Below, one piece after another: positions 7,801 through 47,176 of a DNA stretch of 64,000 nt. The stretch spans positions 29,978,408 to 30,042,407 of the forward strand of contig NC_026657.2 in the NCBI RefSeq assembly GCF_000004075.3, in the 5' to 3' direction. How positions within the stretch are numbered: the stretch's first letter is position 1; every line of letters begins with the position of its first letter. The notes below the pieces were generated by a model, which saw only the letters and a list, made by a program, of their open reading frames with translations, was not told where the DNA came from and ran no database searches. The DNA comes from Cucumis sativus. Its lineage: Eukaryota > Streptophyta > Magnoliopsida > Cucurbitales > Cucurbitaceae. Position numbers and translations under genes: made by a program.

Positions 7801-10011
7801 CATCATCAACTGGGAATAGCTGAAGCTTCAGCTTTATAGAAGCAACATCAATCAAGGAATTTGGCTGAAGAGGGGGCAACAATAGCAAGGGGCTCCCAGC
7901 AGGATCGGTACTTTTTTTCCCTGGAAAAAGTTTGAGAGCAATCAGTCACAACGGTGAAGAAATTTCACACATTTTTGTTCATCCTTTAATGTAGTGTTAG
8001 ATTTTGCATACTACCTTTTCATATAAAGTTTATAACAAATATATAAGAAATAAAAAGTAGATGGCTTGCACTCACCTAAAGTATTTTGATCACGTAAAAC
8101 GTCTCTATTAGTGATGGTGCGCTCTAAATGCTCAGCAGCATCAGCAACCAAAGACACACCTGCTATTGCAGCTTTTTCCCATTTTTTATATGCAGCTGAT
8201 GATACACCTCCTTCTAAAATTAAAAATACCCAATGGATAAATATTTCTTGGTCAGTATCAACAGTGCAACCCCAAATACATAGCAACTTTAACATCTTTT
8301 TCCACTTTTGATGAAATCTTAGTTGATGAAATACATAACGTCTTATTTGCATCTTCACAACACTTAATTCCTATAAAAATCCTTTTTTTAATAAACTTAC
8401 AATCCTGATCTGATATTTCAGATTCAAAAAGTTGGACAAAGGAAATACCTTAGAAATGAAGAATGTAATAGAAAAATTAATTTCTTTTTTTAGGAAACAG
8501 AGAAAACTTAATAAAGAACTCAATCTTCTAAAATAAACCAAGATAACCCTCTCAGAGAAGAGCTCGCACCTGATTTTCTTCTCTGCCTTGATGGTTTAAG
8601 GACTGTGGGATACCCACCATTGTTTCCACGGTTAATACCAACATTCACATTGCGTCTAGAAGCTGTTTTCCTGGGGCCCAATTTTGGAATGTTTTGAGTG
8701 TCGACTAAAACTAATTTAACTGCACGGCCATCATGACCTAATGCTCTACTCTGATTTGAGACAGCATTAGGTATAGGTGGAGGGCAGTTTTCTCCCTGCA
8801 ATGGGCGTTTTCTGACATTCTTCTTCCGATCTTTCAAAAGTTGATGCTCCTTCATGTAAAAGGGAGTTGGTCAGTCCAGCAGCACATGAAGAAGAGTTTC
8901 AAACATAGAAAGGCACCAAAGGATGGGAGGGATTAGATAGTTCTGACTAACCAAGGCTTCAACAAAAATCTTGAAACGTCGGGGTTTCAGATGAAGTTTT
9001 GAAGCTTTGCAACTATATTTTTCCAGTAACGACCACCTGTTGGGCATGCCAAAAATCGCGAGATAAATCAAAACAATCATTTTATACTATTTTCTCAAAA
9101 TAAATATCTTCTTATATTATATGTGAAGTAGTCAAACCGCACAAAGAAAATAATAATAACTCATTAAAGTACTACAGAAATTACAAATTCCCTCAACCGT
9201 CAGTCCACTCACTCCAGATACACAAGGGCCAACATTCCCAACAATGATGTCAAATGGATTATGCCAGAATACGAGAAGCCAAATTGATTTTCATAGTTCT
9301 TCACACATATGCCAACAATCAAATGAAACTATCCACTCACATTTGGAAGCATAGATAAGATTGATGGAATGGTGACCACATAATAAATATTAATAATTAC
9401 CATCGAAGCATTGCAGCATTAGTATCCTTAGAGTTTTTAGCATCCAGACATAACCCAGGAGCCAACAGCTTATTCATACGCCTTACCAGACGGTAATAAT
9501 AATGTCTGACCTGTTTGCAAAATTATTTTCAATACATAAGAAGGGAATAAAGTACAAGTACAAGGATAACTTTCCAACAGAAGACCCTTTATAACAAGCA
9601 CCTGGTCCTTGTTTTTGCTTTGGACATGACAAGTGATTTTTTCAAAATTCTGCACAGAATGCATGATGCAATCAGAAGACATCCATATTAACAAATATGC
9701 AAAGTGAGTGGACAGCTACATACCTTGCCAACTTGCCGTAATGCAGTGAAGAAACTTTCCTCCTCTTCTCGTGTCCAAGCAGCCCATTGTCGAGTAGGCC
9801 TTTTGGCTGCATGAACCAATAAAGAACAAATTAGAGGCAAAAAAATTTCAGGTGAAGAAGGTAAAGAAAATGACAACAAAATACCAGGCAGGGGTTCTAT
9901 GACATGATCAGGAGTTGATGCTGCAATGCCTTGATCTCCAACATGAGCAATGATAGTCTCTGACTGAAGATGTGTCTCAGAGTTGGAGGAGACAATTAAA
10001 TCTGTCTGCAT
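4881..10011 (-). CDS. TKI1: TSL-kinase interacting protein 1-like SANT/Myb protein
   Basis: Nuclear SANT/Myb-domain protein of the plant family first found as a partner of the TOUSLED kinase, presumed to act in chromatin or transcription. Thirteen coding exons: 10011-9885, 9806-9724, 9649-9602, 9510-9401, 9036-8952, 8849-8570, 8213-8076, 7920-7778, 7697-7459, 7376-7040, 6086-5667, 5553-5431, 5063-4881. They join in frame to 771 codons plus stop, close to the roughly 740 residues I recall for the Arabidopsis protein. The SANT/Myb repeat occupies about residues 48-95 (QWAAWTREEEESFFTALRQV, then KNKDQVRHYYYRLVRRM). A basic linker with RKPR/KRKS-like runs follows (residues about 150-240), then conserved blocks SSAAYKKWEKAAIAGVSLVA and IKLKLQLFPVDD, then a Ser/Asp-rich acidic C-terminus. 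The start at 10011 is the only in-frame ATG, but it reads ATGCAG after an A/T-rich stretch and could instead be an intron end; I prefer it as start because an acceptor lies at 10088. Confidence 0.9.
6197..6530. repeat. Diverged duplication inside a TKI1 intron
   Basis: Within the intron between the exons ending 7040 and starting 6086, the segment at about 6197-6290 (AGAATTTTATTATTGAACAT, then GGCACTAGAAGGAAAA) recurs diverged at about 6440-6530. The two copies share the order of blocks but have many substitutions. The intron ends with a short (CA)n near 6532. Confidence 0.6.
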
Positions 10012-11085
10012 TTTATATTTTACAATGAACTATTTACTCTTGCCCTTCATTGACTTCCAAATGATGCTATTAAGCATCAGCTAACAACTGCAAAAATGGG
10101 TGATCCTTTCAAAGTCAAAAGAGAAATCCAAGATCTTCTTACAGAATTTTTTAAAAAGCTATAAATCATACGAGAAAGAGTAGCACTTTAAAACAGATTG
10201 TCTTTATCCAATTTAATCATGTACAACATCAGGAGAAACACCAGAAAATGTTAACAATGGTAGAGCTTACCACTGGGCTTCACATACTCCAAACAATTAC
10301 GAAGTAAAAGTAAAACATAACGAGTGGTTTCTTGTGTCCAGCAATTCATAAATCATCAAATGGAATAAAATGGAAAAGTATAACTACGACCATTACGACA
10401 TAACTCATGATTACTCATATACAGCTTTGCAGGCATCCCTATTTATCCAAAATCCTGTAGCACAAAAATGATAAACAAAACCTAATTCCATCAATTCAAT
10501 CAAACCCTACCCCAAATAAACTTATAGCTCACAAACTAAAATAGAGGATGTAATCAAACTTTGGACTAGAAATTCACTACTACCAGACGGCTGAGAATTC
10601 CCAGCTAATTCAAATCGTTTAACCCTAAATTAAATCCGAAGAACGATCACTCAGCAAAACCTTACATGAACAACTAATTAACCAAATTACGTTAAAATTC
10701 CTTAAATTCAAATCACAAGCAGACAATCGAAAACAAATATTCTAACAATCTCCACTCCATTTTTAGGTCATCAGAGACGATTTAGGGTTTCGAACTGCAT
10801 CCATGGTGAACAGAAAAAATCTTCAGAAAAATCAACAAGCGAATCGAATACGTACACTACACAAGCAATACCTCAAATGGATCGGAAAATTCGAACAATC
10901 TGTAACGCCAAAAGCTTCGAATATTATACAAAAACGATGAAAACCGGAGGGGATTTTCCGACAGCCGTCTACAGTAGAAGGATGAGAAAGATGAAAACAA
11001 AAATAAAAAATAAAAAATAATAATTTTACTTTGTGAAAAGAGAAGAGGGAAAAACAAATTGAAAAAAAAAAGTGTAATTCCTCAA
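9963..11085 (-). repeat. Segment A, source copy: TKI1 first codons plus leader, intron and promoter
   Basis: This stretch aligns almost end to end with 20118-21205 in the same orientation. Shared landmarks in order (plus strand) are GAGTTGGAGGAGACAATTAA, CTTCCAAATGATGC, AACACCA, ATCAACAAGCGAATCGAATA, GCCAAAAGCTTCGAATATTA, GACAGCCGTCTAC and AAGTGTAATTCCT. In one ungapped 42-nt test block I counted 36 identities. It begins inside TKI1 coding exon 1. Confidence 0.92.
10012..11060 (-). promoter_or_regulatory. TKI1 promoter, 5'UTR exon and 5'UTR intron
   Basis: On the minus strand a non-coding leader exon ends at 10872 (TTTGAG|GTATTG). An acceptor TTTTTGCAG ends at 10088, leaving a second leader exon of about 76 nt that holds two tiny upstream frames (an ATG followed directly by Leu and stop, and a six-codon frame) before the ATG at 10011. 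Donor and acceptor are both kept in the duplicate of this segment at 20.1-21.2 kb, which supports them as real. The transcription start is probably within about 10900-11000; an AT-rich region follows. Confidence 0.6.
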
Positions 11086-12556
11086 AATGCTAAAAAGAAA
11101 AAACAAATTGTGAATTTGTTGGGAAAGGATCTGTCTTAAACATTTACTTCCCCTACTTTATTCTATAAGGCCATGTATTTTATTTTTTTGACACAGAGAA
11201 AATATTTTTAAATATTACTTAACCTTATAACAAAATAATAATAATGTATTTTCTAATATTTATTAAATAATTAATACAAATATAACTTAATATGGCAGAT
11301 TGTGAATGTGGGTAAAGTTTAGGAAAATAGATCTAGATTTATTAAAGGTTCAATTTTCTTACCTTTTTCTTTTTTCATTCGACGGTTTTAATATTCAATC
11401 ACTTGAGCGATTAGATGGTTAATTAAAAAAGAAGTTGAATAAGATGGATTAAGAATAATTTTTTTTCCTTTTTTATTTAGTGTTGGAATCTATGTGTTTG
11501 AAAGAAAAGAAGAAAAAGTAAAGGGGTTGAGTTTGAGAAGCAAAATGGGGAACTTTTCTTTCTTTAGAAGGATTTGCTCATTGGGTTGCTGGGAATATGT
11601 TAAAGGGGCTATAAAAACTGAAACTTGGAAAAAAAGGATGGGGGGGGGGGGGGGGGGGGGGGGTTTAAATGCTCTTCTTTTGGGCCCTTTTCCCTGCCAA
11701 TTTGTGTATGTCAAAAGTCTTACTATTTTTGTTTTATTTTTAAATACTATTTGAATAGCTTTCAAAATGTTCATTTTGATCGATTGATTTTTTTTAAATA
11801 TTTGAAAGGTAACCATTTTAATTCATTAAAAATGAGAATGAAATGATCAAAGTAGTCACTTTTTTCAAAGAACAAGGATCAAAATGAAAAAAGTACGCCA
11901 ACCAAAGTAGTCTTAAAATTTTATTATATTTTGAAAACCATTCAAATTTTTATTATATTTTGAGAACCACTTTTGTTTTGTATAGGATAAGAGATAAAGT
12001 TGTCATATTCCTAATTGTTGGTTAGCTTGCAACAATAGCACAGCAGGCTGCAGCACCACATTGAATTTATCAGTACAAAAGTGGATGCTTAAAAACTGAC
12101 CCATTGGTAAACATTGAATGAAAATGAGAAGAGAATCTAGGTAGGAAAATACAGATTATTGAAGGGAATGATGCTCAAGAAAGTGACCATTTAGTGAACA
12201 ATTAATGGAAATAAAAAGAGAATCAAGATTAAAGATATTGATTATTAAAGGTAATCTAATTGATTGAGAACCAGAGGAGAAATGAGTCTTTTGTTTTCTT
12301 TTCTTTGCAACAAAGGGCAAGGCTTTTCTCTAACGTTGAGTCAAGCTCTTCGGAATCAGGCAACATTTTTTATCACACTAGTTTCTTTGACGGATCAGCT
12401 TCTACACTACAAACTTGGTTAATGATAACGGCCTCCGTCGATTAGATAAAACACAAGGTTGAAAGTATATGAACTAGGAGACCATGTTAGGTTGTACTTT
12501 CATGGCTTCTTAGAGCTTCAGTGGTGAATAACCATAACAAAGGAAATTTTTTCTGG
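11061..12556. other. Spacer between TKI1 promoter and PGK-TrmB 3' end
   Basis: No gene is supported. It contains the long G run at 11640-11663, and near 12100-12250 two diverged copies of an 80-bp block (CATTGGTAAACATTGAATGA and its relative CATTTAGTGAACAATTAATG). Open frames here are short and lack similarity to anything I recognise. The 3'UTR of the fusion gene should occupy the right end. Confidence 0.5.
11640..11663. repeat. Homopolymer of 24 G
   Basis: An uninterrupted run of 24 G on the plus strand, preceded by GGAT. Runs of this length are rare in plant DNA, where A/T homopolymers dominate. It could form a G-quadruplex or simply be a slippage-prone site, and its exact length may be a sequencing artefact. 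Confidence 0.9.
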
Positions 12557-15500
12557 TCAGTTGAACGATTTGGTCGTTGATTTCGAGAGCATTAACCTAA
12601 ACATAGGATCCCCACGATCTAATACGTGTCGTTCCCAATCCGATCTGACTCCAAACGGGTTCTCACTTAGCCATTCTTCCCCAACTTGTTCTTGCAAAAC
12701 ACCTAGTTTCCCTTTTCCATATAGTAAGAAAGCTTCCCTCATTCTTAAAGCAACAGCTTCAACATCAGATTGAAGAAAGACCTAACAAATAGGAATCCAG
12801 ATGTAACAAGAGTAATAACCATATGACATAAGAGAAGTCCAACATCCAAGATGAACATTTACTTGAAAAGAAAAAAAAGGTGAAGATGCACTGAGAAAAT
12901 GGTAGTACCTTGCCATTAGACGCAAGCAAGTCTGCCACTGCCTCCACTAATGACCTTTGCAACATTCTCCATCTGTGCTCCGGTTTATTGAAATCGGGGT
13001 TGGGACACTGTATATACAGAGAGTAAATATATTTGGTACAGAGGTGTGCAATTAAGATTTTAAAGTATCGATAGAGCTAGCACTATGAATGGCTCGTATC
13101 AAGCAATTAATAGTTAGGCTTTTGTAAATAGCAACGCCTCTTCAAGGCTTTAACTTTCAAGAATGAAATCAGTATCTGGTTCAAAGTCATGAAGGTAGTG
13201 AATTCTATGAGTGATCTGAATTTAGAGATATTAGCTGGAAAATTCCAAGTGCGTAGCATAGCAGAGTAAAACAAACAGCATTCTATCAGTTCTCAGTAAT
13301 ATCATGGCTAGGAAGGGTCAAAATCCAAATATTGGGGACAACATGATCCATGAGGGTTGTGTACCTGTATAGAGACAAGCACCAACTCCCCTGGATAATT
13401 ACACACAATAGAACGAAACGTTGACGTTGCATTCGTCGCAATAAAATGCCTGATACCATGAGAAAAAATCGAGATAAAATTTAGTAAAGAAACAAAAAAC
13501 CAGATCCAAAGGTACATGTTAACCTAGCGTCAGGGACAGAGGATGCTTCATTGATATGCCTTACCCATTCTTCATCTCCAATTGATGAACAGAATGTAGA
13601 CAACGTTTCACAAGCTGAAAAGGTCGTACAAGTGTGAGATAATGTATATGGTTAAGGTTAATGCTGATAATGACAAGAAAGAAGACCTTTTCATTAATCT
13701 CTAAACCAAGAAAATTGTGATCCTTCCTCCTCCTAGCCATTTCCAGAAGAAACATCCCATTACCTGGCATTTACAACTTACAACTTATCAGCTAACTTCG
13801 TGAATAAACAATTAAATGCAATCGTCATTGGCTTCTTTAAACTTGTACAGTTGTACCAACAAAAGAAAAAACCATTCACTTGTACCAAAAATGTCAGATA
13901 GCATGAAAATCAACCTTTTAGCTGTTAGATACAGAGTTTTACTATAAAAGGGATAGAAAGAATTTTAATCCCCCAAAAAAAAAGTATATGATACAAAGAA
14001 GATAATACCACTTCCAATGTCAACCACTAAAGGCAGAGTTGTATCACAAAACACTGCATCCCAGTTAATCTCATATGGGTATGCCTGCATGAACAAATCA
14101 TTTCAAACTAGTTTTAGCTGCTCATCCAGATGCATACTTCAAAAATCTATCCTATGGTGGGGATGTCTTTAATGGAGTAATACCGTTCTAAAATAAGAAC
14201 TTTCTGCACAAGAAATGATGATAAATGGAAATTGTAGCCTTGCAAAACTAGACAGCACGTGTAATCTTGAAAAAATCAATCATCAAATAGTACGTGTGAA
14301 TACGATTTATGACATTCCCCCTATAAGTTCACATTATGTTCTGCTCTTCGTTGAAACAATTTAAACACATCATTTGTTTTTTAGAAAATATAACAAAAAT
14401 GCCTAAAAACTTACTCTATCCAAGGCCAAAACCCCTGGAAGTTGTTTCCCTTTAAAGAAATCCCATACAACTGAAGCATTCTCAAAAACATTATAAGCAC
14501 ATAGGGTACTCGATTCCTGCATAATTGCTTTGCATGCAGTGGTTCCAACAACAGTTATATCACAATCCCTTTGGGATAGATCATATAGCTTTCTTGCTAA
14601 TCTAGAAGCTCCACGGGCACTTTGGCTTGAATCACTGAATTTCACAGGTCCAATCCATATAATTTTCTGCAACATAGCGCTCAAAGTGTTAGACCGATCC
14701 TCACTTGAGTAAACAACAGATAAGTAATAGTTGGTGCTTTAGAAAAATGATTGCAGAATGATGCATTATTGAACCTCTTCCAACTGTAAGTCCATGACCA
14801 TAAGTGCTAAATCTTAGGATCTGTAATATTATCTCAGGAGATCAATGCTTTCATAATTCCATCATTCAAAAAATGCCAATTCTTCTTCTCCAACCCTTAC
14901 CCAAAGATTTGAATCCCCACAATTTCAAGTTTGATTGCACAGGCATATACATCAAAGGAATAAAAAAGTCATAGGAGCAGTAAAATGATCAAATCCCTAC
15001 AATTTGAATGAAAGTAGATAGTAGATAGTGTTCCATTGATATTCAAATAAAGCAGAAATTGGAATGATTTGATCTATCCTAGTTTTTCTTCGCATGCCAA
15101 AAATTACAGCAGTTTTCTAAATAAAAGAGAAGTTGGACAACCCGAGGTGCTAAATCATAGATCTATTGAACAAGCCGAGGAGCTAAATCATAAACTATTG
15201 GACAACCCAAGGTGCTGAGCATAAAATTATGGTTCATAGCTACCACTTACCAGGCAATGGCAGATACATGGGATTTTAGATCAAGCAGAAGCAACTTTTG
15301 TAACTTAAGGAAAATTTGACTTCTACCTTGCTATTCATAAGCAGGGCATTTATTTCGTCCAGTGATGTAGGACCAAGATCAACTGGTAGCCAACCTAGAA
15401 GCGGAAGAAGTTAATATAACAAAATAACAAGTTTTTAAATACGAAGTGTAAAACCTTAAAAAGGATAAATATTCATTTGAGTTGGGGAAAATGAGAACTT

Positions 15501-17313
15501 ACCATCTGGAATATCATGGGAAGCAAATATTTCCATTTTCTTTGAAGTGTCAACGTTCGCACACCAGAAGTCCTTGGGGTATACAATTCGTACCCTTTTA
15601 TCAAGTGAAAACTGGATTAGTTCTGCAGCTTCCTTACATACACCATGATTCATCAATCTGTAAGAAACAGACAGCCCCAAGGCTTGCATGATCTGAAATG
15701 ACATCATTCCAACAAAGACCAACACAGAGCATGTTGAAGCTAAAACGTGCAAGGCAGCCAATTTGTTTAAGAGGTTGCCTCCTCCAATCTGCATCAAAAA
15801 GTTCATAATACATTACATAGAATCGTTTTATGGCTGATGAGGGGAAAATCCATATCTATTCAAGTACTGGAGAATATACAATTGCAACATAAGGTTGCCT
15901 CTTGGTTTGTGCAGCTTTTTTTAACTGGCATAAACCTTCTTGAAAGTTAAAGCCAGCTAGGCAGGTACTGCAAAAACGAGTAATCCCAACTGTGGATGCA
16001 AGAATTCTATGAGATTGGGAGAAGGAGTCATTAACAAAAATATCAACACCTAAAGATAGCATCTTGGAAAATTTTGAGCAATTCGCAACTTCTTCTTTGA
16101 ACACGGAAAGATTCTCGAGAAGGAGAATATCAGCTTTCTCAAAGCCTTCTTCGGTTAACATCATACTATACGAACTGCACTTTACCGGGCAAACTTTGAG
16201 TTGAAGAACAGAGGACAAATAATCTGTAATTGCAAGCCATCAATTATTAAGCATAAAGTAAAATCTAAACAAACCAAAACCATCTGAAGTCTAAAAGTGG
16301 AGCTCTGTTAAGGTTTAACTTTCATGCATTATGGTTGTCTATTTACTTCAATCCTACTTCGACATATTCATGTAGAATCAACATAATGAATTATCTCCAA
16401 TAAAATAATAACAATAACAAAATCATAATGAATTATCTCCATTCTTAAAATGAAACAACAGTGTACAATATCGAAACCAGAAAACATCCTAGAATGTGTA
16501 CCCACGACAGACTTTATATCCAGATATCTTGCAGCAGAGTTTGTATTCCAGTTGCTAGCAAGTATTACTTTTGCTCCAGATTTGTGCAAGTATTTAATGG
16601 TGAACACTGCATTCTTCATCGAGTTAGTCTTTAGGTCCATTTCTTCCAGTAGCAGTAATGTTGAATCAAATCTGACCATTACAACTTTTCCGGCAAGTTC
16701 TTCCCTGGGAAACTCTCCAAGAGTTTGTACATGTGGAACAGCCTCTAAATTCCACCAACTGGAAGCATGGTCCTACAGGATCCACAAATTCTTATTAAGA
16801 CCACAAGCCAGTTATACACAATACTTGGTATGAGAGAACATGTGTTGGACTTTTAAATGGCAAACTTCACTTAAGGCAAAAAAAAAAAAACAAAGAAATC
16901 AAATCAAGTTTAAAAAACTCAGACAAAGAAAGTAGGATACTGAAAACTTAAGTTATACACAGAGAAATAAAATCCTAAAGTTCCCTTTCCATCATTAAAT
17001 AAATTGGATGGCAAAGACTGAGCCTTTTAAATACCTCCGAGTTCACCAAGTTCTTACAATAGACTGCCCCCCAACTTCGTGCTGAGAAGCATTTCAAACA
17101 AGACATACTTGTATAAGATTAAGGCGCAAACTCAAAGTTTAATATATAGAGAAAAATTAACTTTATACCTGGGGTTGACATTAAGACAGCATGATATCTG
17201 TCATATTTGGAGAAATATGGAGACAAATTTTGACGATATAACTTGGCTGGATCTTGAGCAACTGCTTTAATAACGAAAAGAATTCCTTGAGGTGGATTTA
17301 AAAGCTGGCCCAT
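12557..17313 (-). CDS. Fusion: degenerate phosphoglycerate kinase + tRNA (guanine-N7) methyltransferase (TrmB)
   Basis: One reading frame joins two enzymes. Exons: 17313-17169, 17081-17035, 16772-16502, 16223-15880, 15788-15503, 15394-15327, 14666-14415, 14084-14009, 13763-13687, 13614-13565, 13449-13365, 13007-12909, 12781-12557; 674 codons plus stop. Residues about 65-470 follow phosphoglycerate kinase from its first strand (KVVMVRFD) through VDIFVNDSFSQSHRILAST to KQLPGVLALD. Residues about 471-674 are TrmB-like: SAM motif VVDIGSGNGMFLLEMA, then GLEI, then CPNPDFNKPEHRWRM and ENPFGVRSDWERH. TrmB enzymes put m7G at position 46 of tRNA. The PGK half lacks most catalytic residues (see findings), so kinase activity is unlikely. 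The boundary is a clean exon junction (AGA|GCA), in phase 0. The N-terminus is uncertain: the ATG at 17313 is the first Met, but an acceptor at about 17331-17343 could extend the frame upstream, possibly with a targeting peptide. Confidence 0.85.
15133..15229. repeat. Three tandem 32-33 bp units in a PGK-TrmB intron
   Basis: Units start at 15133, 15166 and 15198, each beginning TTGGACAACCCGAGGTGCTA or a variant (TTGAACAAGCCGAGGAGCTA, TTGGACAACCCAAGGTGCTG). They lie in the intron between exons 15394-15327 and 14666-14415. Confidence 0.85.
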
Positions 17314-18742
17314 CTCCTTTTTCCTTATTCGAGAAACGAGAATTCTGCACTAGACTGCAACAAACCAATCATAAAACAACATGAGGTAGAGAACTTTCAA
17401 ATTTGAGAATGAACCAAATAGGTAAGACCGTAAGGAGGTGTTTAGTCTTCCGTAATGAGATAGATTTGTAACGTAACACAATCCAAAACTCACGTTTGTA
17501 AAAAGCGTTTTGATCCAATTTGTAATATAAAAACTTAACTCATTCCATCCATTTTCAATTCAACCCTCTTTTTTACTGTTTACGTCTTTGATTAGTTATG
17601 CTTTCCAACACTCTTCTGATTTTCAAATCAGTAATTCTGGTGGTATTTCAGCTCTTCAAAGTCTCTGAGAGCATTGGGAGACTCCATCCCAGAGTACGTG
17701 GCATATCGATAATCGATTCCACCTAAACTATGAACTTATAGTTGAACACTAAAAATGTTTATCAAATTAAGTGGCTAGCAACGAGTATGGTTTTAAATTG
17801 TAATAGTTCTTAGAATGAAACTTACTAGATGATAATTCATAAAAGTTTCCGGCAAAGTTTCTCCTGAAAACTAGATAAAATACGCCTAAAATTGAAACTT
17901 TATATCGTGGAAAATGAGACCCATGATATAAATACTCCATTTGCATGTTTTCTTTTAAAAAGAAATGAGCTTACCGATTTGAAACCTTTCTTAGAGGCAT
18001 CTCCGACCAATTTTCCGGTCATCTATTGTCTTCCTTCTTTCCTTCATGTGTTATCTCCCTCCGGACTTCACTTTTCTTTTTCTCTCTCCTCCCCCACGTT
18101 TCGTTGGCATGTAGAGGGTGCGTTTTTTTAAAAAAAATAATTAATATTTTTGTTCCTAAATTTTCCTCTTGCAACCCAAAAGATACGTTAAAAAAAACCA
18201 AAATGAGTATGAATAATTTCACTTGTGTTAGACGCAAGTTACAGGCCAAAATTCATCGATTTTCAATCTTTAGAATAATTTTCATTTGGCTCGAGAAAAC
18301 GAGCTAAAATGTAATTAAAATCACTGAAATTCTAAGAGAGTCTTGAGATCCTTTAGGAATCAAGAGCGGAACAAAAAATTAGACCGCAAATCATAAAAGG
18401 ATGAAAAACATAATTAAACGATTATTTAATTGGCTCAATCCAAACGTGTTTTTCCATTATCGTTGAATTAGGCCTATTTTGAATTGATGTAAAAGACTGT
18501 TTCTGCAATATGGTTAAATGAGATTAGTCTTTCTGCCTGCCAATGGTAAATGGTTTCAACATGGTAGCTAATTTATCTTACAAATGATTTGTTAGAAGGT
18601 TGAAGTTTCTCAAATAAGTTTGGGATCAAAGTCACGTTAGAATTATCAAATGTAAAGAAATAGAATGAATGAAACAAGAAAAAAAGGGGAAGAAATTCAT
18701 TTTTTGAGTTTAAATCACAGGCCAATTTGCCATTGCAGTATT
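17314..18742. other. Upstream region of the fusion gene and TAF8 3' flank
   Basis: The minus strand upstream of 17313 should hold the promoter and any 5' exon of the PGK-TrmB gene. A 19-codon frame at about 17681-17625 starting MESPNALRDFEELKYH was seen but cannot be confirmed. Around 18010-18110 the plus strand is a C/T-rich tract with CTCCCCCACGTTTC. The part right of about 18510 is 3' flank of TAF8, because it is shared with the broken TAF8 copy at 24.4 kb. Confidence 0.4.
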
Positions 18743-18803
18743 GAAGAGAGAAAAGAGAGAAGAGAGAAAAGAGAGAAAAGAGAGAAAAGAGAGAAAAGAG
18801 AGA
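18743..18803. repeat. AGAGAAAAG minisatellite in TAF8 3' flank
   Basis: About six units of the 9-bp purine repeat AGAGAAAAG, one unit shortened. The corresponding place in the TAF8 copy at about 24690 lacks this array and roughly 140 bp around it. Confidence 0.85.
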
Positions 18804-18877
18804 TTCAGAAAGGGCTTAAAGTTTAACACATTCAAGCAAGCAACAGCAATGGGAATAATTATGATCGGGCTTTTGGA

Positions 18878-19990
18878 TTATGATTGATTGAGTTCTTCTG
18901 GCTTCTCTATAGAATGTCTGAGAATGTATTCAACTCTCCTCTTCTTTTCATCTCTTTCGTTCTTATGCTTTCGATCTCTTTCGTCGTCTCGTCTGACCCA
19001 AAACACGGATTCCCTAATTCCTCTCATTTTAGCACTCAAATTCATAGATCCTCCAAGAAATGTTTTGCAAGTTTCTAACTTGAAATGAACAAGAGGCCTC
19101 ACACGAGGAAGAATCTTTGCCTTCTCGTCTTGACTATTCGGACAGCCACCGCCTTTAATCGCCTCAATGGCAGGGGCGAACACCTCTGGCACAGACAAAT
19201 GGCTTATCCCATCCTTGCCACTTGTGTTTTCATAAGGCAATCCAATTCCATCTTCTATCTCTTGAAAACAAGTCCCAAGTAATGAATTACTTTCACCTCC
19301 TGAAAACTCGATCTCGCCATTGCCACTTCTTTCTGAACCGCAGGAAACCAATCTCTGTTGCAAACCCAACAAAGATTTCTCCGCCTTCCTCCGTTGCTTT
19401 GCAAGTTCTATCTTTTCAGCACGCAGCTCTTTCGGCTTCCTCCTCCATAAAGCTGAATGACTGTACGTATGAGCATCAGGAAATGCTGGCAACCAACTGG
19501 GAATATGTTTGCTAGGTGGGGTTTCACCAATCTGAACAAAGGTAGGAATTGACTCCCTTTTTCTGATCACAGAGAAACATGGTAGTGGATGAGCGAAAGG
19601 GATCTCTTGAACTGAATTCACATAGCAAACAATGTTTTTCACTGACCCCGAATTGGCAAGACAATGATCTGATTGCCAAGCACCCAAAAACCCTTGTGAT
19701 TGTTCCAACTCTTCCAGCCCTCTGATTATATCAAAGACATTGCACTCAATTCTACCAGCTAAATTAGCATAAAATGTTGCAATCTTCCCTAAGTGATGAA
19801 GGTATTTAATGGCAATGTCAGCCAGTGTGTCTAGAGCAGACTCCTTAAAACTTTGAAACCCTACACTATTACACATTTGCGCCACCGCAATTTTGGACAC
19901 CTCTTGGACAAACTCGTTGCCTCTGCATTTCCTCGAATCAGAGCTTTGTTGTTCTTTCGACTTCATGTTATTACCAACTCCATCCCTCAT
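18878..19990 (-). CDS. TAF8: Transcription initiation factor TFIID subunit 8
   Basis: Subunit of the TFIID complex, which recognises core promoters for RNA polymerase II in the nucleus. It is an intronless frame of 370 codons, near the usual plant TAF8 length. Residues about 28-105 are the bromodomain-associated histone fold that pairs with TAF10 (ESALDTLADIAIKYLHHLGK, AGRIECNVFDIIRGLEEL). Residues about 128-215 are the TAF8 C-terminal domain (IPFAHPLPCFSV, HIPSWLPAFPDAHTYSHSAL), ending in a Lys/Arg-rich helix. The tail is basic (RKHKNERDEKKRR). The start at 19990 is preceded by a five-codon uORF whose stop overlaps it (ATGA). Directly upstream lies DNA copied from the TKI1 promoter. A broken paralogue sits at 24.4-25.2 kb. 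The frame is intact and is presumably the working gene. Confidence 0.95.
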   Translation of the reverse strand: MRDGVGNNMKSKEQQSSDSRKCRGNEFVQEVSKIAVAQMCNSVGFQSFKESALDTLADIAIKYLHHLGKIATFYANLAGRIECNVFDIIRGLEELEQSQGFLGAWQSDHCLANSGSVKNIVCYVNSVQEIPFAHPLPCFSVIRKRESIPTFVQIGETPPSKHIPSWLPAFPDAHTYSHSALWRRKPKELRAEKIELAKQRRKAEKSLLGLQQRLVSCGSERSGNGEIEFSGGESNSLLGTCFQEIEDGIGLPYENTSGKDGISHLSVPEVFAPAIEAIKGGGCPNSQDEKAKILPRVRPLVHFKLETCKTFLGGSMNLSAKMRGIRESVFWVRRDDERDRKHKNERDEKKRRVEYILRHSIEKPEELNQS

Positions 19991-20001
19991 TGCCTCTCCA
20001 T
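19987..20001 (-). promoter_or_regulatory. Minimal uORF overlapping the TAF8 start codon
   Basis: The minus strand reads ATG GAG AGG CAA TGA; its stop codon shares ATGA with the TAF8 ATG at 19990. Such a stop-start overlap can permit reinitiation and tune translation. In the broken copy at 25.1 kb the same place has changed and no overlap remains. Confidence 0.5.
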
Positions 20002-21205
20002 TTCAGTCTTCTTCGAATTTCGTCAGCATTTCAATTCTTCTTTGATTCCCCAGGGTAACGGTGGGTTGAATTACAAATGTTAATTTGAAATCTGAAAGCA
20101 GAGAAGAAAAATTCCGAGAATGAAGACGTGTCTAAGAGTTGGAGGAGACAATTAAATCTGTCCGTGTTTTATACTTTTTAAATAACTATTTTTCTCTTGT
20201 CCTTCATCAACTTCCAAATGATGCCTTTAGCATCAGATACCAACTGCAACAATGGAGATCATTTCAAAGTCAAAGGGAAATCAGTGATTTTCATATAGAA
20301 TCTTTTTTGAAAGAAGATAAATTATACGAAAAAGAATGCCACTTGTAAACAGAATGTCTTTATCCAATCTAATCATAATCACGTATACCATCAGGAGAAA
20401 CACCAAAAAACTGATAACAATGGTAAAGCTTTCACGGCGCTTCACATACTCCCAATAATTATAAAGTAAAAGTCGAACATAAAGAGTAGCTTCTTGAGTT
20501 CGTTAATTCAAAGATCATCAAATAAAATAAACTAGAAAAAGTATAAATACTGATTGCAACAGCAATCAAGATTTCTCATATATAGACAGACTCGCTAGCA
20601 TCCCTTTTTATCCAAATCCTTCAGCACAAAAATACTAACAAAACCTAATTGCAGCAATTCAATCAAAGTCCTGCCCAATAAAAAATTACAGCTACATAGT
20701 AAAATATAGGAATTGGTTAAACTTCAGACTAAAAATTCATCACCGGCAGATAGCTGAGAATGTGCAACAAACTCAAATCGTTTAACCCTAGATTAAATCA
20801 GAAGAACGATCGGTAACCAAATTACAAGTAGCAATCGAAGACAACTACTCCAATAATCTCCACCCCATTATTAGATCATCGGAAACGATTTAGGATTTCG
20901 AACTACACCCATGGTCAAGTGAAAAAAAAAAAACTCCACAAAATCAACAAGCGAATCGAATATGTACACTACACTGAAAATACCTGAGATGGAATCAAGA
21001 AACCCAATAATCTGCAACGCCAAAAGCTTCGAATATTATTGGAAAACGATCAAGAGGGGAGAGAAATTTACCGACAGCCGTCTACGGTAAAGGGATGAGA
21101 AAGAAGAAAAGGAAAATTAAGAACTAAAAATAATGATTTTTGTGCTTAACAACGGAAGAGGGAAGATAATCTTTTTGAAAAAATAAGTGTAATTCCTTAA
21201 AATAA
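20002..21205 (-). promoter_or_regulatory. TAF8 leader and captured TKI1-type promoter
   Basis: TAF8's own leader covers about 20002-20115. A strong acceptor (TTCTTCTCTGCTTTCAG) ends at 20092. From 20118 outward the DNA is a duplicate of the TKI1 5' region, keeping the leader-exon donor (CATCTCAG|GTATTT, exon end 20984). A 5'UTR intron of about 890 bp running from captured donor to native acceptor is therefore possible. This is inference; no transcript data are available. Confidence 0.55.
20118..21205 (-). repeat. Segment A, second copy (TKI1 5' region upstream of TAF8)
   Basis: Direct duplicate of 9963-11085, about 10.1 kb away and in the same orientation. The TKI1 start codon is destroyed here (ATGCAG became CACGGA) and only about 16 codons' worth of exon 1 were carried along. 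The piece is thus a truncated TKI1 fragment rather than the source. Confidence 0.92.
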
Positions 21206-22502
21206 TAACCAAAAATCGAATCTTGGGATCATACATTTTCATGTGTTTCGTGTTTTGCGCCAACAAAACTGGCAACGCTTCGAATTTACCTGCCCTAATG
21301 CTGTTCTAAAGAAAATGATCAACTCATCTAATAACTTTAGACATTCTATAGTCATTCTTGAATTAGAGGATACATTGTGGCATTAACTAAGAAATACGAA
21401 TGAACAAAAAGGTAGATAAAGACTTTTTTTTCTTCACATTATGTTTTTGTTCTCTTTCGAAGTAAGAGAAAGAAAAGCATCGACTGGAGTGGGAGAGTCA
21501 GAGTCGAAAATGTTGACATTAATAGGTGAAGTAAAATATACATTCAAACAAGTTACACGAGACGAATTTGAATGTTTAACTAGAATGATGTAATGTATAT
21601 TAACTATTATCTAGTCATCTTCGATTAAGTTTTATATTAAAGAAGAGCATGTTTGGATTAACTAGAAAAAAAGTTTCTATTCCTAACAATTTTTTTTATT
21701 TGTTTATAAAATTATAATAAGGTTAGTTATGTTTTTTTTTGTGTGAAGTGTTTTTATCGTAAGTTTGTTTTGATTTAAAATTATGATGAATGTTTGCTGG
21801 TAAACATTGTTAACCACACTTTTAAAACTGTATTGAAAACACTTTTATTGTCTATGTTCTTTTACTTTTTTTCCAACATACGATTGGTTGTTGTTAGGTG
21901 ATGCAATTGGTTGACCAAATTGATCTATACAATTGGTTGTGGGAGGAATTGAAGCTTATGCTTGCCAACAAATTTGATGAAGTAGGTTATTGTTGGTGAA
22001 CATTGGAGTTGATTGGCAAAAGTAGTCGACGAAAGACAATTGCCAACATCAACTATGATAGAAGTGAAGTAAACAGTTAGTAAATGTCATATATTTTGAT
22101 AGTTTTGTGTAGTATACAGATCTATAATTTTAAAAGAGATTAATGATTAAACAATCAAAATCAAATATAAACACTTGCAGAGTCACCTATACAAATTATC
22201 AAAAAATACAAACATAAATTATCATAGATAGTTCCAAACATAAATTATAATGTTGAGTGACCTTTTAAGTGAACGCGAAATAGTTTGTTATATTTATAAA
22301 TAATTTATTTTATTTTACTATATTTAAAAATATGAGTGGATTAAATTAGGTTAAATAGGTTTCTAGAGGAGCTTTTCATATCTATCGAAAATTGCCCTAT
22401 TTGCTATGTGCATTGCATGCTTCAAAAATTAGGGTTAGTTATGGATGAAAACTTATTAGGTATAAAATTGAATAGACGTACAGGTAATAAGTAATTTGAC
22501 AT
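21206..22502. other. AT-rich spacer before EMC5
   Basis: No gene is seen. A run of short GTTG/TTGG-rich words lies at 21880-22030. The right end carries a telo-box-like TTAGGGTT at about 22430, roughly 280 bp before the EMC5 start codon. Confidence 0.45.
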
Positions 22503-22503
22503 T

Positions 22504-22536
<33 letters not shown>
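22503..22536. repeat. (TA)n(TG)n compound microsatellite
   Basis: Roughly nine TA units run directly into seven TG units, about 180 bp upstream of the EMC5 start codon. It is probably length-polymorphic. Confidence 0.9.
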
Positions 22537-22711
22537 AATGCCGTTAATATCATAGAAGCAGGACAGATGATTCGAATCTCATAGATCGGACAAAAAATTG
22601 GGGATTGTGGAGCTAAGCAAGGAGAAGATCCCATCTATATTGCTTCACCTTCATTTTTGTAGTTTCTTTGGTAGCTTCCGGCGTCCGGTGATTGAGATCC
22701 GTCAAGTCGAG

Positions 22712-24145
22712 ATGGGAGTAGGTTTCGTGGTCGGTGTTTTCGGAGTTCTAATTCTGGCTCATGCTGCTTATTCTACCATTCAATGTATGCCCTAAAAAAC
22801 CCAATTGTCATACTCTCTATAGTTCTAGGTTTTCTTGCTTCCCGTTGTTGGTAAACCCTGCACTTCTCGATTCATCTTTTTTGATTGCAGATAGGAGCTT
22901 ATTGAAGATCATGCAGGAAGAGTTTTCTGGCCCTCCGTTTCATGTATTGTCATCGCCATTTTTTTTTTCTTTCTATAATTTTGGCTTGATTCAGCATATT
23001 TCACTCGATTTCAGGTGTTCTTGAATTAAGGAAGTTCTTTCTTTTCCCCTAACTTTAGGTGGCAGTCGAATTGATTCTAGGGTTAGTTTTGTCCATGTGG
23101 GCTGCACTCACCGTGCCAGGGAAGTTTCACTCGATAAATCCAGAAGCCGAGGAGAATAGGTACATTTCCCTTTCAAATTGTGCTTCGTTTTCCCCATCGT
23201 AATCATATTTCCCATCTCCATACAAAACGGTGATAGTTTAATATATTAGATTCCATTTGCATGTTAAATGTGATAAGGCTTTGGTGCTGAGGGTTAGCTC
23301 TGGTAGCAGAACTGTGCTAAAGCGTGTCACGAAATTTAAACAAATCCAAACGATCAGCCCAATTGTCTTGTTTTGTGATCTGTTAATACATTCTTTTGGG
23401 AAATCAATTTGTGGATTCTGTCATTCATTTGATTTTAGAAGTTCTAATCAAAGAGAAGTTGAGTTTTCTTCCCATCAACTCAAACAAATATGTTCTGCTA
23501 ATATCAAAAGTGGCTAACTCTTCGATGCAACAGTGTAAATTCGCTGGCATCTGCACTTGTGTTGTAATTCTGTAAGAATTTTGTTGGGGAAGTAGCAGCA
23601 TTTTCCTTGTTGTGACAATGCTTTTACAATGTAGTCTATGGTTTTTCAAAAAAGGAAAAAAACAATGATTCTCAGTGAATGGTAAAACATGTGCGGAAAC
23701 CTAATTGGAGAAGTAACCAGGCACCTCGCCCTCCTCCAGGGTATCTTGCAAGCTACTGATGTGCCTTGTACTTAAGGGCATATAATGTAGGATCTAGTAG
23801 GTATTTTTGTTTTCTTTGAAGATTTTACAAAGCCGCTCCTAGATATTCTTAGAGAGAGTTAGATATCAATTCATTAGAAGTTTTAGAGAGTTTATCTATT
23901 TGGTTTGTTCCCTATATTTTCATAGAACAGATTCCCATCCCTTCAATTTGAATGTTGAATATTCCAAGAATATAGAGTTGTCACTGTTACTACTAATTTC
24001 AAAGCAAGTTAAATTAATTTTCATGTAGATAAATGTTTTTCTCCATTGCAGGATAGTTTCTCTTCCAGCAAATCAAGATTTTATGGTCTTCAACCACCGA
24101 GGCAGACTATTTCCCAAGCAAGCAGATTTGAAACTGAAACACTGA
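22712..24145 (+). CDS. EMC5: ER membrane protein complex subunit 5 / membrane magnesium transporter-like
   Basis: Small membrane protein of the MMgT/EMC5 family, part of the ER membrane complex that inserts transmembrane proteins; animal members were also described as Mg2+ transporters. Exons 22712-22784, 22891-22943, 23059-23159 and 24052-24145 give 106 residues, as expected for plant members (about 104). There are two hydrophobic segments, residues about 4-22 (VGFVVGVFGVLILAHAAYS) and about 43-62 (VAVELILGLVLSMWAALTVP), separated by a short loop with RSLLKIMQEEF. The tail contains FMVFNHRGRLFP, a family signature. The start is the first Met in good context (GAGATGG) and matches the family N-terminus. 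All borders are GT..AG. The neighbouring genes are unrelated in function. Confidence 0.93.
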
Positions 24146-24391
24146 GATCTCTATCATGATTAAAGTAGACCCAGGGGAATCCAAGCTGGAAGCAGAAATG
24201 GACGTTAAAGATAGCTTAAAGGAGATATTGCTGCGTTCCATTAATCTAATGTTCTCCTTCACTTGTTTATTATTTTGGATACTGTGAGGTTTTTCCCATG
24301 TTTATTTTATAGTCTCTGCCTCAAAACAAGGTTTTTCCAGTGTTATTGAACTAGGTTCTTGAATCAATACTAAAGGTTAGTATGTGTTTCT

Positions 24392-25230
24392 GCAGTCTGG
24401 CTAACTGAGATCAGTCTTTTTGTCTGGCAATGGTAAATGGTTTCAATAAGGTAGCTGATTAATTGAATTAAGATTCTTTTAGATGGGTACAAGTACATGG
24501 TTCTTGTTATAAACTGAATTTTGTTCTCTGATGCAAACTTGAGTCCTTCTATATTGAAGCACAAAATAAAGGTCATCCTATTGACTTCATTTGCTATATA
24601 TGTGCATTCCAATAGTTTGTCTCACCAAATAAGAAATGCTGTGTCAGTGCCAGATTAGAATAATCAAATGTGTAAGAGATGAGTGAAAGTGAGCTTCAGA
24701 AGGGCATTTAACTCGTTGGAGATCGGGCTGTTAGATTATGATTGGTTTAGATTTTCTGGTTTGTTTATGGAATGTCTGAGAAATGTATTCAAGTCTTCGC
24801 TTCTTTTTACCTCTTTCGTTACTGTGGTTTTGATCTCTTTGGCATCATCTTGTCTGATTCAGAACCAACAGAACCCTACTTCCTTGCCATTTTAGCATTC
24901 AAATTCATAGATCCTCCAAGAAATGTTTTTCAAGTTTCTAACTTGAAACGAAAGAGTAGTTGGAAGAATCTGATCTTGCCAATCGTCTTGACCATTGAGT
25001 TTTCATTGATGAAAACACGTCCCAAGCTCGCTGTTGACGCTTTTTGACCAAACTCACTGCCTCTGTATTTCCGTGAATTAGACATCTGTTCTTTCAACTT
25101 CATGTTATTCCCCTTCCCCATCCTTCAGCATTTCAATCTTCAAATTTCGCCTCACTCAAATGGATCAAAATCCAGTTATACCTGTTGGAAAGATGATTCA
25201 ATTCTTCTTTAATTAATGGTAGGTTGAATG
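24392..25230 (-). pseudogene. Broken, internally deleted copy of TAF8
   Basis: It aligns with 18510-20075 in the same orientation. The 3' flank (CAATGGTAAATGGTTTCAA), stop region (GGATTATGATTG versus AGATTATGATTG) and tail codons (CAAATTCATAGATCCTCCAA) are present, as are the first codons (TTCAACTTCATGTTATT). The middle of the frame, corresponding to roughly 19140-19890, is absent; histone fold and TAF8 domain are therefore lost. The tail frame also carries indels and stops, and the ATG is not conserved. It cannot encode TAF8. It lies just past the EMC5 3' end and could contribute to that gene's 3'UTR or to antisense transcripts. Whether it arose by duplication with deletion or by two events cannot be told. 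Confidence 0.88.
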
Positions 25231-25940
25231 GAGTACTTGGAGATCCAACAATCAAATGTGTTTGTAATTGCGAATAACCAACAATGAAGGTGGAGAATAA
25301 CAGACGCAACCATAGACATTCGACTCCGTTTGGAAGAGTGATTAAACCAAACACTCAAGTAAAATTGGGTAAAAAGTGCCTCTTCGTCTAAAGAAATTAA
25401 ACCTTGACTTTATATTTGAGTTAATTATAGTTGATTACACATCTTAGCCATTAAATCATTAAAGAAATTAATCAATATAATCTAATAAACTCAAAATAAT
25501 AAATATGAAATTTCAAAATTCTGCCAAATTGACTTAACTTTACTAATGTATAATTAAAATGCAAACTCCACACCTTAATTATAAATTACTATTCATTTTA
25601 GACATTAAGCCATATTTATTTAATTTTTTTTTGAAAAAAATGATTTTAAATGCACCCTAAAAGTTATTTTGAGTGGCTATCAAATGTCCTAATTTTGTTC
25701 AAAATGACTTGATTTTTAAACTAAAATGTATTCCAAACACACCTTATTTCTAAAATTAGTTTATTTAGAGAGAACATTGATGTACCTAATTTATTTTAAA
25801 ATAATCTATTTCCCTTTTTTTTTTTTCAAAATTACACCATTTTTCCAATTGACCAATAGCTTTGCCCATTTTTGAACAATTTATCATGTGTTACTTGTTG
25901 ATTGAATTAACAAACCACAATTAACTTACCTAACAATAAG
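25231..25940. other. AT-rich spacer
   Basis: No gene is supported. The left end (25231-25370) is no longer alignable with TAF8 flank. The rest is homopolymer-rich A/T sequence leading into the promoter of the complex I gene. Confidence 0.45.
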
Positions 25941-26121
25941 ATTGGGCCTCGGACTCAAGTGGGCTTAATCTCAATCATAAAATGGGCCTCTTCTTCTCAC
26001 TCGGGCCGTTAATTTGTGTTCACACAGATGGGGTATTCCATGGCGGTAGATATTAGATAAGCCGATAGAACTGAAAACCTGAAAGTTCTGAGAAGCCAAA
26101 GCGAGAGAGAGAGACGAACAA
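25941..26121 (+). promoter_or_regulatory. Promoter with three site II elements
   Basis: TGGGCC at 25943-25948, TGGGCT at 25960-25965 and TGGGCC at 25983-25988 lie 130-180 bp before the start codon, with a further GGGCC at about 26003. Site II (TGGGCY) boxes bind TCP factors and are typical of plant nuclear genes for oxidative phosphorylation subunits. A GA-rich leader (GCGAGAGAGAGAGACGAACA) directly precedes the ATG. Confidence 0.7.
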
Positions 26122-45330: not shown

Positions 45331-45622
45331 CATTGCCGTCCGATTAGACTGGGAGGCTTTTTTTTCAATCATATCGGCTGTGCCTGTATCCAATCACCTG
45401 ATTTTAAGTGGATATGACGTGGCCTCGTAAAATGTCAATAATACCCCTTCTCGCAATTCTCTCAGTTATTTAATGGACAAATATATAAATTTAAAACATA
45501 AATTATGTCAGTAGAATTTTATAGTTTAAATTTATATAATTCTAAGTTATTAGTTAAAATTGATACAAAATTCAAAAGTTTATAGTTTAAATTATATAAA
45601 ATTTAAAGTTTAAAAATACAAA

Positions 45623-45624
<2 letters not shown>

Positions 45625-45662
<38 letters not shown>
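45625..45662. repeat. (TA)n microsatellite
   Basis: About 19 TA units, plus-strand reading AATATATA through to TATACAG. Confidence 0.92.
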
Positions 45663-45666
<4 letters not shown>

Positions 45667-47176
45667 TGTTTTTTAATTATTTTAAACCAAATTTACGTGG
45701 ATTTGACGTATAAACAATCAATTGCACTCTAAAAGCATTTTTTTAATTCAATTTTCGAATTTTTTTTGGTGGTTGTATTTCTTTTAGTTCTTTCAATTAT
45801 TGTATTTTTGAATATCTTAAATGTAGGTATACTAAAACAGATTTTTGTGAAGCTATAGACCTAAATGTTAGGAAAATCCAAAACAGAAATAAAGGTTTTA
45901 TCTTTTTCTTTTACAATAAATTAAATTATTTTTTCATTTCATCTCAACTTTTACCTTTCTATTTTTCTTTCCCATCTCCTTTTCATTTTACTCACGTTTT
46001 AAAGAATCAAATCTATTTTCCCTCAGGTACTATTAGCAATTATTGATACATTTTAGACAATGTGCATATTCTTATGTACATATCATTACTCACAAGCTTA
46101 AACATTTATGTGAATTAACAAGTTAAAATTAGTATTTGAACAAGTCGTTTTGAAGTCTTATGTATTGTTTTATTTCCTCTCCATTTTAACTTACTTGATT
46201 TCCATGTTGTGGATCTTGTTTAAATTTTAATCCTACAAGTAAAATAAAAGGTTAGATGATGTATGGACTGTTTTATCTAATTTTCCATTCTTTGTCAAGT
46301 CACAAAATTTTAGAGGTTAACTTTCAATTAATCTTATAAAGAATATACTTGATGGTTTTGAAATTTTTGTCCAAGCTTAGTAATAATACAAATTTTAGGA
46401 TAATGAGTGCTTGTGTTATTACAAATGACAAATTTATTTATTTAGCCATATATATACACACACTTCAATCAATCGTTAGATAAATGTCTTCTCTTTTTCT
46501 CTCATGGTTGTTATATATATATATATATTCCTAACCATAATTCTAACGATCAAGTATAGTAGAATTGTATAGATTGATAATATTAATTAGGATATATATC
46601 ATTCTTATATTGATTAAGAAAATGAAAAAAATATTGCTGAAAAAAGGGCAAAACGATAATATTGATTTTTTAAAAACAGTGTACTTAAAATACAATCAGT
46701 ATGGTCATTTTGTTTTATAATTTCGTGAACTTTAGTCTATCATAATACATATTAAACGTAGTAACTCCTAGTTGTTATTTTATTTTTTTATCAAATTATA
46801 TTAAATAACAACAATAATTTGTGTGAACTTGTTTACAAAATTTACCAAAAATATGTTAATAAAATGATAAAACAAGAAAACAAGAAACTAATTTTAACAC
46901 ATTTACGGTGTAGAATTAAACAAAATCCATAAAAGAGACAAATAATAATATTCTAAACAATGAAGTTTCTGGAGTCTTCCTAGAAGACAAACCATACTAT
47001 TTTTCAACCATATACGTTAATAATTAGTTTCTGTAGGTGAATAAATATGTATTTCAATCTCTAATAATCCTGTTAAACTATGTGACAGAGTTGATTAAAT
47101 ATATTGTTGATCAGTTATAATATTTGATTCAAAATTTTACCAATGAAGTTGAAGTGATGATAAACTTTGTTAATAT

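Follow-up and report, generated by a model that had tools for sequence, protein, structure and literature searches.

TKI1-derived DNA upstream of a divergent TAF8 paralogue in cucumber: a possible promoter swap by duplication

The window analysed here, a stretch of 64,000 nucleotides from Cucumis sativus (NC_026657.2, positions 29,978,408 to 30,042,407), carries an intact TAF8-like gene about 10 kb from the gene for TSL-kinase interacting protein 1 (TKI1). The initial annotation had proposed that TAF8 captured the promoter, leader exon and splice donor of TKI1, which raises the question of where the DNA in front of TAF8 comes from, how it arrived there and whether TAF8 would be transcribed from it. 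The features of the locus are listed in Table 1.

Table 1. Coordinates of features at the TKI1-TAF8 locus (window positions unless a chromosome is given)
Feature	Position	Strand	Basis
TKI1 coding exons, 13, 771 residues	4881..10011	-	gene model; 100% protein match over 100%
Source segment, 5' end of intact TKI1	9962..11088	-	self-BLAST, gene model, homologue alignment
Outer limits of similarity between live TAF8 and its sister (3' flank to 5' leader); inner part absent from sister	18448..20071	-	
Live TAF8-like gene (window type): one exon, intact ORF of 370 residues, Bromo_TP and TAF8_C	18878..19990	-	ORF, domain search
Junction between TAF8-derived and TKI1-derived DNA, 46 bp; holds pyrimidine tract and AG acceptor	20072..20117	-	
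Candidate acceptor, exon start 20091	20091..20111	-	joint fourth of 59 AG sites
Duplicate of the TKI1 5' end, from its upstream flank through the presumed leader exon and the intron to coding base 50; ATG lost	20118..21205	-	self-BLAST, genome search, alignment
TATA-like TATAAA at 20173 with pyrimidine patch TCTCCTCC ~25 nt downstream, rival start	20141..20173	-	
Candidate donor CAG/GTATTT, exon end 20984	20978..20986	-	top-scoring of 69 GT sites
MMgT-family gene, between TKI1-derived block and decayed TAF8	22712..24145	+	domain search
Sister TAF8, decayed: deletion of the inner part, stops, frameshifts	24331..25229	-	similarity to live TAF8, protein matches
Dispersed repeat upstream of decayed TAF8	~25407..25849	.	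37/41 genome matches of 24160-26050
TAF8-like gene, intact, single-exon	C5:30512384-30513511		genome search
TAF8-like gene, intact, single-exon, 97% to melon P0151	C6:22923276-22924355		genome search

Source of the DNA upstream of TAF8

Self-BLAST of the window paired 9962-11088 with 20118-21203 in the same orientation (1152 columns, 74.7% identical, E 0.0), and this was the top-scoring repeat pair of the whole window. A search of the 226.6-Mb cucumber genome with 20118-21205 (simple repeats skipped) returned two places, the segment itself and the 5' end of TKI1. On global alignment of 9962-11088 with 20118-21205 the identity was 79.3% over 1066 ungapped columns (K2P divergence 0.245, bootstrap interval 0.213-0.282), which bears out the same-strand duplicate claimed in the initial annotation. 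As also claimed there, the copy breaks off within coding exon 1 of TKI1 (50 bases in) and has an altered ATG. It starts 128 bp upstream of the TAF8 ATG (19990); the initial annotation gave 120 bp.

The sequences identify TKI1 as the source of the duplicated block, in agreement with the earlier assignment, because TKI1 is represented by an intact 13-exon model with a conserved MQTD start and no other TKI1 matches lie nearby. Its product matches P0001 (770 aa; annotated in Cucumis sativus as TSL-kinase interacting protein 1 isoform X2) at 100% over the full length, contains a Myb/SANT domain (Myb_DNA-binding, 32.2 bits) and matches named TKI1 proteins over its full length. In an alignment of 18 homologues, chosen from 120 listed among 538 matches, the N-terminus MQTD was found in all seven cucurbit rows and MQ in 14 of the 18, and conservation of the first 45 residues was merely loose outside cucurbits. 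The TKI1 protein had 14 matches in the genome, 12 of which were its own exons and two a distant paralogue on C6; none was near TAF8. The upstream DNA of TAF8 thus derives from the TKI1 5' end, and physical capture of TKI1 DNA as the proximal 5' region of TAF8, by duplication, is well supported.

Several other repeats were noted in the window. There is a run of 24 G at 11640-11663, upstream of TKI1, and a short repeat at 22214-22348, between TAF8 and the EMC5-like gene, which accounts for 38 of 42 genome matches of 20118-22650. Self-comparison also found a palindrome at 45608-45687 (36 bp perfect at 45626-45661, within 80 bp at 77.5%).

Candidate start and splice sites of the TAF8 leader

The splice sites of the TAF8 upstream region were scored with a model built from just 12 TKI1 introns. 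The donor with exon end 20984, which had been predicted to be retained, scored 9.6 and ranked first among the GT sites, while its TKI1 counterpart (GAG/GTATTG) scored 5.1 and ranked joint fifth of 82. The polypyrimidine acceptor predicted near the TAF8 start was likewise recovered, as the AG before 20091, which is preceded by a pyrimidine tract. The presumed acceptor of the TKI1 leader intron (exon start 10088) and the matching site in the copy (20246) were both outside the eight best acceptors of their stretches, and for this reason TKI1's own leader intron is only presumed. The presumed leader exon is free of ATG in both TKI1 and the copy. Two upstream ATGs would be left by the splice 20984/20091, four by use of the TKI1-type acceptor and 18 by an unspliced transcript, counted on a leader one base short at its end; the splice 20984/20091 would retain two short upstream ORFs. 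Just before the coding region, a four-codon upstream ORF, MERQ (20001-19987), overlaps the TAF8 start codon with its stop as ATGA, and another short one, MLTKFEED (20029-20003), immediately precedes it.

By position, TAF8 is likely transcribed from TKI1-derived DNA, since the leader that it shares with its sister ends at 20071, and transcription would most likely begin inside the TKI1-derived block. A leader with the splice 20984/20091 would be the likeliest single transcript form, though not a certain one. Whether TAF8 also uses the start, leader exon and donor of TKI1 is a separate matter, and we consider such use possible but somewhat doubtful.

The pattern of divergence along the block bears on this point. 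Identity in the promoter flank (73.1%) and in the leader exon (78.1%) showed no excess over the intron interior (77.1%; P-value = 0.44 and 0.90, respectively, Fisher test). Conservation along the block was patchy (P-value = 0.01, variance), and neither the longest identical run (28; P-value = 0.27) nor the best 40-base window (P-value = 0.56) was out of the ordinary. No selective constraint on the promoter or leader was thus detected; these parts drift much like the intron. The motif TTNGATYTG of intron-mediated enhancement (IME), with one mismatch allowed, was not enriched in either intron; CGATT occurred three times versus expectations of 0.85 and 1.15 for the two introns (P-value = 0.07 and 0.08), and an IME motif signal was rejected for want of clear enrichment. 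The copied intron also gave no sign of a structured RNA of a known family, as no Rfam match reached gathering score in 9000-26000.

The drift of promoter and leader exon at the pace of the intron suits another account, in which the block does derive from TKI1 but its promoter is dead, and TAF8 starts at the TATA-like box at 20173 or in its native leader, without the leader exon or intron of TKI1. The box, which sits in the former 5'UTR and start-codon region of TKI1, is followed about 25 nt downstream by the pyrimidine patch listed in Table 1, and is a credible alternative start. However, by our estimate such words turn up by chance in DNA this rich in AT (two were found in 1310 bp), and the donor is intact and scores above that of TKI1. 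We regard a dead promoter as the less likely account.

TAF8 paralogues, the decayed sister and the duplication history

The window gene contains both domains of the family (Bromo_TP, 78 bits, cut-off 24.6; TAF8_C, 56.8 bits, cut-off 21), and the search of the cucumber genome found three TAF8-like open frames in all, each a single exon: this one on C3 and two others on C5 and C6. In a tree of 42 proteins, chosen from 120 listed among 424 matches, it fell in a fully supported clade of nine rows (stem 0.69), in which all six rows of named species were cucurbits; a second cucurbit TAF8 clade had six rows (stem 0.44). A second tree of 34 rows with all three cucumber genes agreed with the first and placed the C5 gene deeper, on a long branch and with unsure placement. 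In these trees, the window gene belongs to a divergent cucurbit paralogue group, which weakens the earlier description of it as a general transcription factor subunit and, as one of three copies, limits the reach of any putative regulation shared with TKI1. The window-type gene probably predates the duplication of TKI1, since its clade includes Momordica and Cucurbita members. In Benincasa and Cucurbita pepo, the matches to TKI1 and to the window-type TAF8 come from contigs of equal length, which hints at an old linkage; in Cucurbita maxima the lengths differ. Searches of the literature on TAF8 in cucumber gave no match, and among the matches listed for TSL-kinase interacting protein and TFIID subunit 8 none concerned this locus, as far as the parts of those sources available go.

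The C5 and C6 genes have upstream regions that resemble one another (score 133, reached by 0 of 300 shuffles). Compared with the C6 and C5 regions, respectively, the P-values were 0.04 and 0.37 for the window leader, 0.03 and 0.73 for the TKI1-derived block, and 0.41 and 0.06 for the sister flank. These matches were given no weight, because they come from several tests against plain shuffles of AT-rich DNA.

The decayed sister is of the window type: each of the seven window-type proteins compared with it (P0121-P0127) gave a match with E no higher than 2.4e-10, while P0151, of the other cucurbit type, gave no match. The sister keeps NAKMA, as do four of the six other window-type proteins, where the window gene is changed to SAKMR; the Q in EFGQ/EFVQ is common to the sister and the window gene alone (0/6 other window-type proteins). 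Where the sister has a TGA, Cys is found in the window gene, in Benincasa and in P0122, and Ser in the remaining four. This pattern fits, weakly, a split of the sister within or near the Cucumis-Benincasa group, the evidence being weak because one Ser codon could also yield TGA. The divergence of Benincasa and Cucumis is put at 16.8 million years in the part of PMC7395165 available. No poly-A tract was seen by eye near the sister (24320-24331), a weak test of retrogene origin for an old copy, and intron loss is uninformative on this point because TAF8 is intronless.

No clear TKI1 sequence was found upstream of the sister at strict scoring (142 of 281 control windows were as good). With loose gap costs, the sister flank scored 71 against the spliced TKI1 leader, and none of 277 control windows reached this score (maximum 70); the five comparisons of the flank with leaders gave P-values of 0.08, 0.003, 0.09, 0.39 and 0.91, the spliced TKI1 leader being the 0.003. 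We set this match aside because strict scoring failed to repeat it and, for a copy of the block's age, an alignment at roughly 80% would be expected. The comparison is limited to the ~177 bp that precede the dispersed repeat, and the strongest short similarity between the sister and TKI1 regions (30 bp, E 0.011) falls inside that repeat. The flank of the sister is probably the native TAF8 flank.

The similarity between TAF8 and its sister stops at 20071, 46 bp short of the start of TKI1 similarity at 20118, and its leader part is itself significant (score 43, P-value = 0.002, shuffles). The 46 bp between match neither the continuation of TKI1 nor that of the sister (P-value = 0.84 and 0.17). 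The window thus holds two pairs of direct, collinear copies (9962-11088 and 20118-21205; 18448-20071 and 24331-25229) with a tail-to-head junction, as expected of tandem duplication. The copy and its direction, the intact TAF8 gene, the decayed sister, the collinearity and the junction are all observed. In the simplest form, a single tandem duplication would have spanned the DNA between TKI1 exon 1 and a point just upstream of TAF8, followed by deletions; a duplication from TKI1 exon 1 to the 5' side of TAF8 creates such a tail-to-head join. The TAF8 pair has a divergence of 0.174 pooled (0.134-0.213), a value lowered by constraint on the TAF8 coding region, and 0.204 in the 3' flank (0.12-0.31), and the divergences of the two pairs are of the same order.

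Two events are possible, because the pooled interval of the TAF8 pair (0.134-0.213) only just touches that of the TKI1 pair (0.213-0.282). In that case, one local duplication would have copied the TKI1 front end beside TAF8 and another, independent one would have copied TAF8 to 24331-25229; the live TAF8 would be the original, and the dead copy promoterless from the outset. The point estimates of divergence do differ, and the intervening genes have left no relics: none of the EMC5-like gene was found below 18448 and none of the phosphoglycerate kinase (PGK)/methyltransferase stretch above 21205. These intervening genes are PGK (three ORFs match it, the weakest below cut-off), a methyltransferase-like ORF that scores below its cut-off, and the MMgT-family gene, which we take to be EMC5. 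The absence of relics in both directions does not agree with a single tandem duplication in its plain form; one has to suppose either that the intervening copies were later deleted completely or that the two duplications were separate. Against two events, both similarities end within 46 bp at one junction, on the same strand and in the same order, and we find two duplications less likely. Carriage of the TKI1 fragment by a transposon of Pack-MULE or Helitron type, elements that capture plant gene fragments (PMC13317346, in the part available), was rejected as very improbable, because no inverted repeat of at least 12 bp brackets the block, as one would around a Pack-MULE (the three inverted pairs in 19990-21500 are not at its ends), just two copies were found genome-wide and the source is 10 kb away in the same orientation.

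Proposed history and comparison with known systems

Taken as a whole, a promoter swap made by duplication, with TAF8 transcribed from within the block, is the explanation to which we incline, with modest confidence. In one duplication, the front end of TKI1 would have come to lie against the 5' leader of a TAF8 paralogue, both in one orientation. At the junction, TAF8 would have kept its reading frame and gained TKI1-derived DNA as its proximal upstream region, and the sister, with its probably native flank, would then have decayed. The single event, the transcription start, the splicing and any shared regulation are the parts that we infer. As a tentative extension, the junction may have given a working chimeric 5'UTR at once, running from the TKI1 promoter, leader exon and donor to the junction acceptor; the fusion would have outlived the sister, the donor would now be stronger than that of TKI1, and a TAF8 paralogue would have been re-wired to TKI1 expression in the Cucumis lineage. 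If true, the locus would be a compact plant example of promoters exchanged through duplication, in which the donor, the recipient and the dead sister all lie within 16 kb and each step is testable in one locus and close relatives, and it would show a route for a TFIID-subunit paralogue to gain separate regulation.

The closest likeness is to SYCP1 of amphioxus, in which, in the part of PMC5803294 available, a gene copy replaced its parent, co-opted the promoter of the neighbouring gene CHIC and acquired a new multi-exon 5'UTR. The surviving SYCP1 works, and the surviving TAF8 would work, from a neighbour's promoter with a leader from outside the ancestral gene, the parent copy being lost. However, SYCP1 is a retrogene that shares a bidirectional promoter and whose transcripts and expression have been demonstrated, whereas the promoter of TAF8 would itself be duplicated DNA.

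Other systems share single features with the locus, as far as the available parts of each account go. As in fusion genes of Oryza (PMC9199173), parts of two genes are joined, but here these are only a noncoding front end with 50 dead coding bases, and the TAF8 frame is unfused. Transposon-mediated capture in plants (PMC13317346) similarly moves a gene fragment beside another gene, whereas the cucumber block has two copies only and is without bracketing inverted repeats. Leader introns raise expression in plants through IME (PMC6760150), and here, too, promoter and leader intron would move as one unit, although TTNGATYTG is not enriched in the cucumber block. In mungbean (PMC11394781), there are also three TAF8-related loci per genome, some of them single-exon; unlike the reading preferred for the cucumber locus, that account, in the part available, describes TAF8 without promoter exchange.
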